A stretch of DNA of 64,000 nt, taken from assembly GCF_029223285.1 (NCBI RefSeq), contig NZ_JARHUJ010000004.1:124001-188000 (forward strand). Reading direction: 5' to 3'. The DNA comes from Paraflavitalea sp. CAU 1676. GTDB taxonomy: Bacteria; Bacteroidota; Bacteroidia; Chitinophagales; Chitinophagaceae. A program made the position numbers and the translations under genes. Below are positions 10,346 through 60,993 of this stretch, piece by piece (within the stretch, counting starts at the first letter, position 1; every line of letters begins with the position of its first letter). The notes below the pieces were generated by a model. The model had not been told where the DNA came from. It worked only from the letters and a program-made list of their open reading frames with translations, and did no database searches.

Positions 10346-10972
10346 TCAAACGATCCGTTCGCTCAGGGCTTTGGCGATGGCTTCCTTGCCGCAGTTCACA
10401 TGTAGTTTCTGGTAAATGTTCTTGAGGTGGGCGCGCACCGTATCGAAGGCGAGGTTCATTTCCTTGGCGATGAGCTTGATGCTGTAGCCTTTGGTAAGCC
10501 ATTGCAATACCTCTATTTCGCGGGGGGAGAGGTTGTACTTGTTGGCATCGCGCCGCGCCTGGAAAGTATTCAATACTTTTTTGGCGATCGTGGGCGACAT
10601 GGGGGCGCCGCCTTCCAGCACTTCCTGAATGGCGTCGAATAGTTTGGCCGGTGGCGTCTTTTTGAGCAGGTAGCCATTGGCGCCGGCGCACAGGCATTGA
10701 AACAATTTCTCATCATCTTCAAATACGGTGTACATAATGACGGCCGTTTGGGGCTGTGCTTCCTTGATGAGCTGTACGCCACGGATACCGGATTCGCCGG
10801 GCATATCAATATCCATTAATACCACATCGGGCTTGTACACGCGCGCTATATTGGCTGCATCATTGCACTGGTTATAATCGCCCACCACGTCGTAGTTGTT
10901 CATCTTCAACAGGTAGGCCAGCGATTCCCGCAGCCTGTCATTGTCTTCGAATATGGCGATCCTGGCTAACAT
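10346..10972 (-). CDS. NarL/FixJ-type response regulator
   Basis: 208 residues. Receiver domain at about 1-120 with acidic FEDND near 8-12, phospho-acceptor D54 in VVLMDIDMPGESG, and lysine in LLKKTPP near 104. LuxR-type DNA-binding domain at about 145-205 (LSPREIEVLQWLTKGYSIK followed by a recognition helix). It lies 139 bp downstream of the beta-propeller sensor kinase on the same strand and is its likely partner. Regulon unknown. Confidence 0.93.
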   Translation of the reverse strand: MLARIAIFEDNDRLRESLAYLLKMNNYDVVGDYNQCNDAANIARVYKPDVVLMDIDMPGESGIRGVQLIKEAQPQTAVIMYTVFEDDEKLFQCLCAGANGYLLKKTPPAKLFDAIQEVLEGGAPMSPTIAKKVLNTFQARRDANKYNLSPREIEVLQWLTKGYSIKLIAKEMNLAFDTVRAHLKNIYQKLHVNCGKEAIAKALSERIV

Positions 10973-20746: not shown

Positions 20747-20794
20747 CTGCACAGTTACAGGCCAAAACTGCACAGTTATGGCCCTAAACTGCAC
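20747..20794 (+). promoter_or_regulatory. Three direct repeats at 21-bp period upstream of LamG gene 1
   Basis: CTGCAC occurs at 20747, 20768 and 20789, exactly 21 bp apart, each followed by AGTTA or a near match. The last copy ends 71 bp before the start codon at 20866. Direct repeats of about 9 bp at 21-bp spacing are the known layout of LytTR-family operators. The half-sites (ACAGTTACA, ACAGTTATG) fit that consensus loosely. Confidence 0.65.
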
Positions 20795-20865
20795 ACTTAA
20801 TAGATTGAGTCACTGGTTTGGTATTCTTGCAGTACTTTGTGCTGCTAATCTTTAAAACCCTGAAC

Positions 20866-21717
20866 ATGAGATTGTTAAAAGCGTTGTCTGGTAGTTTGTT
20901 GATTTATTTACTGTTCTTCACAACTGGAACACAGATCACCTCCTGCCAAAAAGATCCGTTGACGGACACCCTTATCATAAAAGATACCATCATTATCAGA
21001 GATACGGTAGATTGTAATTGTTACGATTTAACCAGCGGTCTGGTGGCATGGTATAATTTCAAGGACGGAAACCTCAACGATGCCAGCGGCAAAGGAAACC
21101 ATATTGTTTTCAATAATGCTACAAAAGCACCCGATCGTTTTGGAAAAGCAAATGGTGCGTACTTATTTAACGGAACCAGCAATTTTATGCAGGTTGCCAA
21201 CAGCGCAAGTTTGAATCCTACCAGCTCCATTACGATTTCTGCCGTTTTCAAAGCAAATGATTTCTATCCTGGTACCTGTTATGGTAATCAAATTTTGGCA
21301 AAAACCGATAATTCTGACAAAGCGACGGGCTATTATGCCATTAGTCTTTCAAACTTTACCAGTTGCTATGCAGCTTTTGATCCCAATCGGGTTAAAGTTA
21401 TGGGCGTATATGGTGACGCAATGGGCGCAAATGCCAATGCAATTTCCGATTCAAATTTTGTAAAGCGTAGTGAGTGGTACAGCGTAGTATATACTTATGA
21501 AAACCTTACTGCCAGGATTTACATCAATGGGGAATTGAAGAGCGAAAAAAAGTATGCTCAGTTTTCCTTCGTGCCGAATTCCGGCAGCCTCTACCTCGGC
21601 AAGAACCTGGATTCGCAGTACCCTTATTGGTTTAATGGGGTGATCGACGACGTGCGCATCTACAACAGGGCTTTGTGCAGCGGAGAGGTTAAGCAGTTGA
21701 ACAGGTCGAATGATTAA
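20866..21717 (+). CDS. LamG-domain lipoprotein, copy 1
   Basis: 283 residues from ATG 20866, preferred over an in-frame start at 20818 because the signal peptide begins here. The lipobox is ITSC with lipidated C27. A short repetitive stalk (DTLIIKDTIIIRDT) leads to DCNCYD and a LamG/concanavalin-like jelly-roll from GLVAWYNF (about 57) to FNGVIDDVRIYNRAL (about 260-274). Such domains bind sugars or proteins at the cell surface. The next gene is a paralogue of identical length in the same orientation. Ligand and role are unknown. Confidence 0.85.
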   Translation: MRLLKALSGSLLIYLLFFTTGTQITSCQKDPLTDTLIIKDTIIIRDTVDCNCYDLTSGLVAWYNFKDGNLNDASGKGNHIVFNNATKAPDRFGKANGAYLFNGTSNFMQVANSASLNPTSSITISAVFKANDFYPGTCYGNQILAKTDNSDKATGYYAISLSNFTSCYAAFDPNRVKVMGVYGDAMGANANAISDSNFVKRSEWYSVVYTYENLTARIYINGELKSEKKYAQFSFVPNSGSLYLGKNLDSQYPYWFNGVIDDVRIYNRALCSGEVKQLNRSND

Positions 21718-21738
21718 TTCTTTTCTATAAGTGTGATC

Positions 21739-21765
21739 AGCCAGGCCAAAAGCCTGGCTTTTTTT
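21739..21765 (+). terminator. Terminator of LamG gene 1
   Basis: AGCCAGGC (21739-21746) pairs with GCCTGGCT (21752-21759) followed by seven T. It is almost identical in sequence to the terminator of the second copy. Confidence 0.9.
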
Positions 21766-21819
21766 GTGCGGCAAACCAACCGTTTTCCACCTGCCGAAAG
21801 GTCAACCCAATATGGTTGA

Positions 21820-21867
21820 CTGCGCAGTTACGGTCCAAAACTGCACGGTTTTGGCCCGAATCTGCAC
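21820..21867 (+). promoter_or_regulatory. Three direct repeats at 21-bp period upstream of LamG gene 2
   Basis: CTGCGC at 21820, CTGCAC at 21841 and CTGCAC at 21862 repeat the layout in front of copy 1, again at 21-bp spacing. The last copy ends 68 bp before the start at 21936. Spacing is kept although flanking bases differ, which points to selection on the sites. Confidence 0.65.
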
Positions 21868-21935
21868 GACTATCGGTTTGTTCTCCCGGCTAAGCCGGGA
21901 ATTTCTATTTTTACTCGTTATTTAAAACCCTGATT

Positions 21936-22787
21936 ATGAAAATTTTGAAAGTATTGTCTGGTAGCATTCTGTTGTACTTACTGTGTTTTTCGACCAGTAC
22001 ACAACTCGTTTCCTGCCAGAAGGACCCCCTGACAGACACGCTCATCGTTCGCGATACGGTGATCATTCGGGACACACTCGATTGTAATTGTTATGACCTT
22101 ACGAATGGTCTGGTGGCCTGGTATAATTTCAATAATGGATCGTTGAAAGATAGCAGTGGCAATGGAAATCATATTGCTTTCAATAATGCCACAAAAGTGC
22201 CCGACCGTTTTGGTAAGCCGAATGGCGCCTACCAGTTCAATGGTACCAATAATTATATGGAGGTGCTAAACAGTTCCAGTTTGAATCCTACCGGCGCCAT
22301 TACGCTGGCGGCTGTATTTAAGATCAAAGGTTATTATTCGGGCCTTTGCCGCGGAAACATCATCATGGCAAAGACGATGTACGGCGATAAGGAAAATGGT
22401 TTTTATCAGATGGGCTTTACAGATAACAGTTGTGCCACTTCGGAGCACCTGAATAAGTATAAGTTCTATGGTAATCATGGCGATTTTTATTCCGGTAAGA
22501 TCGGTGGAGCCAGACCAGATTCCATTTTTACCCAAACTGAACAATGGTACAGTGTAGTCTATACGCAGGATAACCTGATTTCGAAATTGTACATCAATGG
22601 GGCATTGAAGGATTCCCGTACTATTCCCTACCACTCATTTACGCCCCATTCCGGTAGCTTGTATTTCGGAAAGTTTCCGGATCAGCAATATCACTATTGG
22701 TTTAATGGTGTAATTGACGACATAAAGATCTACAACAGGGCACTGTGTGATGGTGAAGTGAAGCAGTTGAACAGAAGTAAAGATTAA
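21936..22787 (+). CDS. LamG-domain lipoprotein, copy 2
   Basis: 283 residues, colinear with copy 1 and clearly more than half identical by eye. It has the same signal peptide layout with lipobox LVSC, the same stalk (DTLIVRDTVIIRDT), the same DCNCYD and the same LamG ending (FNGVIDDIKIYNRAL). The middle, about residues 130-200, is the most diverged part and includes surface loops that would carry ligand specificity. The first two cysteines after the lipid anchor may form a disulfide. It is probably a tandem duplicate with its own promoter repeats and terminator. Confidence 0.85.
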   Translation: MKILKVLSGSILLYLLCFSTSTQLVSCQKDPLTDTLIVRDTVIIRDTLDCNCYDLTNGLVAWYNFNNGSLKDSSGNGNHIAFNNATKVPDRFGKPNGAYQFNGTNNYMEVLNSSSLNPTGAITLAAVFKIKGYYSGLCRGNIIMAKTMYGDKENGFYQMGFTDNSCATSEHLNKYKFYGNHGDFYSGKIGGARPDSIFTQTEQWYSVVYTQDNLISKLYINGALKDSRTIPYHSFTPHSGSLYFGKFPDQQYHYWFNGVIDDIKIYNRALCDGEVKQLNRSKD

Positions 22788-60300: not shown

Positions 60301-60993
60301 TCACAATAACTTCAGTTTTTTCATGAGCTGGCCCCGATAGCTGTCGGCCACCGGGATGGGCGTACTCATGATATTCAGTACACCATCTTCGATGCTGTCG
60401 ATCTTGTCGAGCGACACGATATAACTGCGGTGGATGCGCATCAGTTTCGGGGAACGGATCTTTTCTTCTACGGCTTTCAGGGTGGTATGTACGATATGCC
60501 ATTTGCCGGGCGTGAAGATCTTGATGTAATCGCCCATGGCCTCTATCCACAATATTTCATCGAGCTTCACCTTTTTCAGGGCGCCATTATCGCGAATAAA
60601 GATATTGTCCTCATCGATATTGTTGACTTCCGAGTTATCGCGCTGCAGCACTTCCCGGGCCTTTTCTATGGCTTGCAACAGGCGCGGGAGGGTGACCGGC
60701 TTCAACAAATAATCGACTACGTTCAGTTCGAACGCTTCGAGTGCATAATCCTTATTGGAAGTGGTGAATATGATCAGCGGTTTTTTGGGCAGTGACCGCA
60801 ACAGTTCTATACCACTCATACCCGGCATTTCTATATCCAGAAATACCAGGTCGGGCGTATGCCGGTTGATCTGCTGGTGGGCTTCCATGGCATCACGGCA
60901 TTCTCCTATTACTTCCAGCAGGCCGGTTTGTGTGACCAGGTGACTTAACATGAGCCTGGCCATATCGTTATCATCGACTATAAGGCATCTCAT
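60301..60993 (-). CDS. LytTR-type response regulator
   Basis: 230 residues. Receiver domain with acidic IVDDND at 5-10, phospho-acceptor in DLVFLDIEMPGMSG near 55, and lysine of LLKPVTLPRL near 97. LytTR DNA-binding domain at about 130-230 (ILWIEAMGDYIKIFTPG, MRIHRSYIVSLDKID). LytTR proteins bind two or more direct repeats 21 bp apart. It is probably the output of the kinase gene that follows. Interestingly, sites of that geometry occur in this window in front of the LamG genes. Confidence 0.93.
   Translation of the reverse strand: MRCLIVDDNDMARLMLSHLVTQTGLLEVIGECRDAMEAHQQINRHTPDLVFLDIEMPGMSGIELLRSLPKKPLIIFTTSNKDYALEAFELNVVDYLLKPVTLPRLLQAIEKAREVLQRDNSEVNNIDEDNIFIRDNGALKKVKLDEILWIEAMGDYIKIFTPGKWHIVHTTLKAVEEKIRSPKLMRIHRSYIVSLDKIDSIEDGVLNIMSTPIPVADSYRGQLMKKLKLL

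Follow-up and report, generated by a model that had tools for sequence, protein, structure and literature searches.

What are the direct repeats in front of the two LamG lipoprotein genes of this locus and, if they are operators, which regulator do they serve? The window, that is, the whole stretch of 64,000 nucleotides analysed, is C18:124001-188000 of G000, the genome of the studied strain (8.84 Mb, 23 contigs). Both genes lie on its plus strand: copy 1 (20866..21717, ATG at 20866) encodes a lipoprotein with a LamG domain (Laminin_G_3) and what we take, by eye and from the usual rule, to be the lipobox ITSC; copy 2 (21936..22787, ATG at 21936) encodes a LamG-domain lipoprotein sharing 61% identity with the first. 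The initial annotation had reported three hexamers at 21-bp spacing before each gene and read them as LytTR operators. The hexamers are where it placed them: CTGCAC starts at 20747, 20768 and 20789 upstream of copy 1, and CTGCGC, CTGCAC and CTGCAC start at 21820, 21841 and 21862 upstream of copy 2, in exact 21-bp steps that leave 71 and 68 bp, respectively, between the last repeat and the ATG. The two-hexamer pattern had four matches in the window, compared with 0.02 expected (100 shuffles).

Genome-wide, the bare hexamer pair CTGCRC-N15-CTGCAC had 20 matches and the read-backwards control had none; 11 of these matches lay in arrays, and the other nine were unlike the motif. The fuller pattern CTGCACNSTTN8AAWCTGCAC, with up to two mismatches, gave 19 matches in G000 (backwards control, 0), which indicates that the half-site is longer than the hexamer. 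A looser second pattern without the first two bases gave 24 matches (control, 0), all in known arrays. The repeats with their spacing thus occur far above chance, and the window repeats are confirmed as real. CTGCAC was rejected as the whole half-site: across 32 half-sites the core is 12 bp, CTGCAC(A/G)(C/G)TTA(T/C), that is, CTGCACASTTAY. A palindromic reading was also discarded; the AACTGCACAGTT dyad is present in some half-sites and is broken by a C at position 8 in 18 of the 32. On the plus strand of the window, array A consists of CTGCACAGTTAC (20747..20758; PWM score 18.8), CTGCACAGTTAT (20768..20779; 19.2), 21 bp from the first, and CTGCACACTTAA (20789..20800; 16.3), 21 bp from the second, and array B of CTGCGCAGTTAC (21820..21831; 16.2), CTGCACGGTTTT (21841..21852; 14.6) and CTGCACGACTAT (21862..21873; 10.7).

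We identified 14 promoter arrays with 21-bp steps in G000, at C1:428886, C2:41285 (minus strand), C3:179730, C5:27542-27603 (minus strand), C6:44456, C12:902845, C12:904477, C17:274245 (minus strand), C17:584781, C18:144747 and C18:145820 (the two of the window), C18:778820, C21:440064 and C22:39372. The array at C17:274245 has two good half-sites only, and that on C5 has a weak middle one. The regions around the single matches at C12:509076, C17:64339 and C20:421133 held no array, apart from one weak pair in L044.

The arrays extend across the genus. With up to one mismatch, the five Paraflavitalea genomes had 15 (G000), 12, 10, 9 and 8 pattern matches, and the control had none in four of them and one in G002. 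With up to two mismatches, G002 had 15 matches compared with five in the backwards control, and 54 other genomes of the order had 0-3 matches each, which is the control level. In total, 46 arrays were recovered: 14 in G000, 10 in G001, nine in G002, seven in G004 and six in G003. From the other genus genomes 33 regions were fetched; L110, L127 and L128, without an array at the threshold, and a weak G001 array (L174:18778) are outside the 46, and region L176 was unused. The guess of the initial annotation that the repeats mark a real regulon gains support from the 14 arrays in G000 and from the presence of arrays in all five genomes.

When the 46 arrays were superimposed at their final half-site, a common promoter layout emerged. 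Three half-sites were present in 41 of them and two in five (at a lenient score of >2), and conservation was concentrated in the half-sites, a GGTTTGT element and the -7 region. GGTTTGT lies at positions 14-20 past the start of the last half-site (in 32 of 46 arrays its TTTG falls precisely on 16-19), and a TAnnTTTG-like box starts about 44-45 past the same point. At least five of six letters of this box stood at the expected place in 18 of 46 arrays (shuffled mean 4.7, maximum 12); the box was weaker in the other 28, with four of six letters in 22 and fewer in six. The gap from TTTG to TA is about 24-25 bp; Bacteroidota promoters usually have a shorter one. Promoters activated by AgrA are reported to have suboptimal spacers (PMC4227749). 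Taking the Bacteroidota -7 box as -12 to -5 (PMC9723704), the last half-site falls at about -56 to -44. In the window, array A lacks the usual GGTTTGT after half-site 3 and has AGATTGA there instead; its -7-like box, TACTTTG (20833..20839, plus strand, assigned by eye), lies 44 bp past the start of the last half-site, in the region where TAnnTTTG-like boxes are enriched. Array B has GGTTTGT as a -33-like element after half-site 3 (21875..21881, plus strand), at the conserved positions 14-20, and an imperfect -7-like box, TATTTTTA (21906..21913, plus strand, also by eye), at the same distance as in other arrays.

A same-strand ORF of at least 80 aa starts within 700 bp downstream of 42 of the 46 arrays. 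By a crude hydrophobicity rule, 38 of these 42 array-led ORFs have a hydrophobic N-terminal stretch, compared with 218 of 411 background ORFs (at least 150 aa, same regions); the four that failed the rule include L121, a LamG lipoprotein. According to Pfam, the array-led genes of G000 encode the two LamG lipoproteins, a CBM96/PKD protein (T9SS tail below the cut-off), an OmpA/TSP3 protein, an outer-membrane beta-barrel with a carboxypeptidase-like domain, an F5/8-type-C/Ig protein and a MORN/TPR protein. Another array leads a 266-aa protein without a Pfam match, followed by a T9SS-tail protein, and the remaining array-led genes of G000 had no Pfam match over the cut-off. Comparison of LamG promoters in relatives, as suggested at the outset, showed that the array is kept before all five LamG lipoprotein homologues scoring >230 bits; four of the five belong to this genus, and the L180 locus alone was retrieved independently of the motif. 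Two weak homologues (L179 and L181; <40 bits) had no array directly in front. In G001, a LamG lipoprotein gene with an array lies about 12 kb from the LytTR gene of the kinase locus described below.

The four arrays that lack such an ORF, C6:44456 in G000 and those at the same place in G002, G003 and G004, are each followed by a conserved, terminator-bearing stretch of some 85 nt, which we regard as a candidate small RNA. In G000 the stretch occupies C6:44553-44638 (L037:7554-7639), convergent with an RNase G-like gene (named by eye). Cut at 83-86 nt after the -7 region, with the 5' end assumed, it has a core that is nearly invariant in the four genomes and a 3' end made up of a 10-bp hairpin and 7-8 T; fold z-scores were modest (-1.4 to -2.8). 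Two mechanical ORFs, L037:7378-7653 and L106:7304-7519, start upstream of the array and run through. A 32-base piece of the stretch, with up to three mismatches, was found in three of 59 genomes, each of them a Paraflavitalea genome; in G004 the stretch is present but has lost one base, which puts it out of reach of the 32-base pattern, and G001 gave no match to the piece at the same tolerance. Rfam returned no match on the stretch and two sub-threshold matches nearby only.

The AgrA-type LytTR half-site consensus is [TA][AC][CA]GTTN[AG][TG], with a G where 18 of the 32 half-sites here have C. The corresponding ACAGTTAT/C fits it in part, position 8 being C in 18 half-sites, G in 13 and A in one. 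By the definition in PMC11347149, a LytTR operator consists of direct repeats, each about 9 bp long, with 10-13 bp between them; the repeats here have a 21-bp period and a 12-bp core, with 9-12 bp between cores, a value that depends on where the core is cut. The same source describes LytTR proteins that bind three direct repeats 18-21 bp apart. We consider it probable that a single response regulator of the LytTR type uses the arrays as its operators; the likeliest candidate is the protein encoded at C17:277269-278051 in G000 (Pfam Response_reg 7.4e-21, LytTR 6.6e-15), one of 59 LytTR matches in that genome. The LytTR-operator reading of the initial annotation finds good support at the level of sequence, also from an array-led gene at the LytTR/kinase locus across species and from an array between a LytTR gene and a LamG lipoprotein gene at L180.

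In G000 the candidate gene is flanked by two large, mutually related Reg_prop/Y_Y_Y/His_kinase sensors (L141:4325-11000). With the flippase-like and other locus genes named by eye and the gene maps annotated with four phmmer queries, the G000 order is kinase, LytTR, kinase; an array-led secreted gene adjoins these three at the end opposite the flippase-like gene. Two kinases also accompany the LytTR gene in G003 and G001, and one in G004. The array-led secreted gene is on the flippase-like side of the locus in G003 and G004; in G001 the homologue of the G000 target has a weak three-site array in front and lies, as in G000, on the other side. The G002 contig carries a kinase and, on the flippase-like side, the array with its large gene; it breaks off without reaching a LytTR gene, and the rest of the genome yielded no orthologue over the threshold. 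An array-led gene therefore adjoins the LytTR/kinase locus in all five species, and the LytTR gene itself was seen in four. Orthologues of the candidate in G001, G003 and G004 share 79-81% identity with it; the best match outside the genus, among the matches listed from 54 genomes, has 53%. Near 12 array loci, we counted one LytTR gene within 3.6 kb compared with 0.58 expected. Since adjacency in G000 is no better than chance, the case for the regulator rests on synteny and on a distant metagenome-assembled genome (MAG). Co-occurrence of arrays and kinase locus within the genus carries little information, because all five genomes have both.

The DNA-contact motif of the candidate, FLRIHNS, is close to FFRCHNS of AgrA, in which R198, N201 and S202 contact DNA (PMC4227749). 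HNS was present in five of 54 parsed LytTR proteins of G000 (five of the 59 loci gave no parsed protein, and 18 of the 54 did not fit the search expression). The motif is not decisive for the regulator, because L179 and L183, whose genomes show no array, also have HNS, and L180 has HYS. In a PDB search with the whole candidate protein, the best 60 of 186 matches align with the receiver part; with the LytTR domain alone, 3d6w was found at 5e-6 and AgrA was non-significant (E ~0.06).

A regulator scan of genome contigs gave 34 loci, of which L177 is G001 itself, so that 33 were scored for arrays. The top array score, 25.1, was that of L180, the distant MAG; among 300 column-permuted matrices (mean best 15.6), four reached at least 22 and one exceeded the L180 score, with the maximum of 27.4. 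Neither the L181 array (19.0) nor the L193 pair (12.4) stood out from the permuted control. At L180, a kinase gene is followed by a LytTR gene (54% identity to the candidate) ending at 10759. Two half-sites come next, at 10773 and 10794, and the gene that starts at 10890 encodes a LamG lipoprotein sharing 44% identity with window copy 1. In the whole L180 genome (4.8 Mb), this pair is the only pattern match (control, 0). The L181 genome had five matches (control, 1), including a three-site array that stands some 310 bp upstream of a gene whose start is signal-like, and the L178 genome had three (control, 0). One of the latter belongs to a three-site array (L215:1501) without an ORF shortly downstream on the same strand, which perhaps precedes another small RNA in a different lineage. 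The L183 and L193 genomes gave 0 and 1 matches, respectively (control, 1 in each), and the L179 genome gave none, though its LytTR protein is 60% identical to the candidate. Linkage of arrays to a LytTR regulator is thus conserved in four of five genus genomes and at L180, with L179 as a counter-example. A tree placed L178 and L180 neither clearly with the genus regulator nor clearly apart from it, and did not single out orthologues among the outside proteins.

The arrays could instead belong to another of the 59 LytTR proteins, such as the C20:109641 paralogue or the regulator that the window itself encodes at 60.3-61.0 kb; several paralogues might also share them. We consider such readings unlikely. 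The paralogue at C20:109641 is encoded in the same genome and has 54% identity to the candidate, and each of the five genus genomes has paralogues at 52-55% identity, even G002, in which the candidate was not found; however, contig C20 has no array at the thresholds used, and it is next to the C17:277269 locus that an array-led gene lies in the different species. The window regulator (60301..60993, minus strand; Response_reg and LytTR) is encoded about 38-40 kb from the window arrays. We set it aside as the cognate regulator: no array lies near it, and its recognition motif, LMRIHRS, has HRS. The initial annotation had been cautious about this protein, and rightly so, as nothing ties it to the sites; the LytTR protein of C17:277269 is, judged from sequence, the better candidate.

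AraC/XylS-type activators also bind direct repeats with a 21-bp period, and conservation in each repeat here runs past 9 bp. Scoring of 150 of the 168 candidates gave at least 126 AraC-type domains in G000, but within 3.6 kb of 12 array loci we counted one AraC-type gene compared with 1.23 expected, so no linkage is apparent. Four phmmer queries and inspection by eye revealed no AraC gene in the conserved array-LytTR locus, and the L180 array lies directly behind a LytTR gene, so that operators of an AraC/XylS-type activator appear distinctly improbable. Still less credible is the idea that the arrays are dispersed repeats, remnants of a mobile repeat or of promoter duplication copied along with surface genes. 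Similar promoters are indeed carried by the paralogous operons at C1 and C18:778820 and by the two LamG copies, but conservation in the 46 arrays is confined mostly to the half-sites, GGTTTGT and the -7 region, the arrays precede genes of different Pfam families as well as the small-RNA stretch, and the period is kept in the distant MAG.

Under the LytTR-operator reading, the arrays would be the binding sites of one signal-responsive switch that seems to control secreted and cell-surface proteins and one small RNA in these soil bacteria. Sensor kinases, as their domains suggest, would phosphorylate the regulator, which would then occupy two or, in most arrays, three of the 12-bp half-sites. 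These follow one another at intervals of two turns along the same face of the helix, and directly after them comes the -33-like TTTG, with its gap of about 24-25 bp to the -7 box; this geometry is that of the arrays, and binding is predicted from it. The bound regulator would recruit RNA polymerase and switch on secreted, lipoprotein and outer-membrane genes, with both LamG lipoproteins and the ~85-nt small RNA among the targets, each of which has its sites in the sequence. Activation would be expected rather than repression because of the position of the sites. RcoM and most LytTR regulators are said in PMC11347149 to bind upstream of -35 and activate. If the reading is right, it predicts operator, promoter layout, candidate regulator, target set and candidate small RNA together.

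S. aureus AgrA responds to a quorum peptide, and RgaR and VirR also belong to the LytTR family. The RcoM and CoxC systems of CO metabolism resemble the present one in that their LytTR domains bind three direct repeats at a distance of about two turns of the helix (18-21 bp in the case of CoxC; PMC11347149). As described there, however, their half-site is TTCNNGCA/TTNNNGCN, they are single-component sensors, whereas a response regulator with Reg_prop kinases is found here, and CoxC represses; at least 14 promoters are involved here. In C. difficile RgaS-RgaR, as presented in PMC10602386, a response regulator uses two direct repeats with a key G at -51 and -72 (21 bp apart), and RgaR directly activates the small RNA spoZ; the same source lists VR-RNA, VirT and VirU for C. 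perfringens VirS-VirR and names AgrA, VirR and RgaR as regulators known to activate small RNAs. These systems have two repeats compared with mostly three here, and differ in phylum, half-site and sensor type. AgrA at agr P2/P3 shares the HNS contact motif with the candidate and has upstream direct repeats, the promoter-proximal ones centred near -60, with suboptimal promoter spacers (PMC4227749), but it uses two repeats and -35/-10 boxes, in contrast to mostly three repeats and Bacteroidota -33/-7-like boxes here. Three-repeat LytTR operators and LytTR-activated small RNAs being already known from these sources, the present system would be a further case; among the literature matches listed, titles and abstract openings define no LytTR operator in Bacteroidota.

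There is perhaps an even chance that a wider proposal is correct: that a Bacteroidota LytTR system with paired Reg_prop kinases runs an agr/VirR-like regulon of varying, lineage-specific secreted adhesin-like and LamG surface proteins and a conserved ~85-nt regulatory RNA, through triple-half-site promoters with an overlong -33/-7 spacer, and that this regulon gains new surface genes when these come to carry the triple array, in some cases next to the locus of the regulator. If so, the agr/VirR logic of surface or secreted proteins plus a regulatory RNA would recur in another phylum.

Apart from the arrays, the spacer of the LamG copy 2 promoter contains a perfect short hairpin, CCCGGCT-A-AGCCGGG (window 21885-21899), between GGTTTGT and the -7-like box; none was seen in the LamG copy 1 promoter. 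The arrays at C1:428886 and C18:778820 (L033 and L041) lead paralogous operons whose first proteins both start with MRNPW; the C1 copy has 229 aa and the C18 copy 487 aa, and the C1 gene may be truncated.
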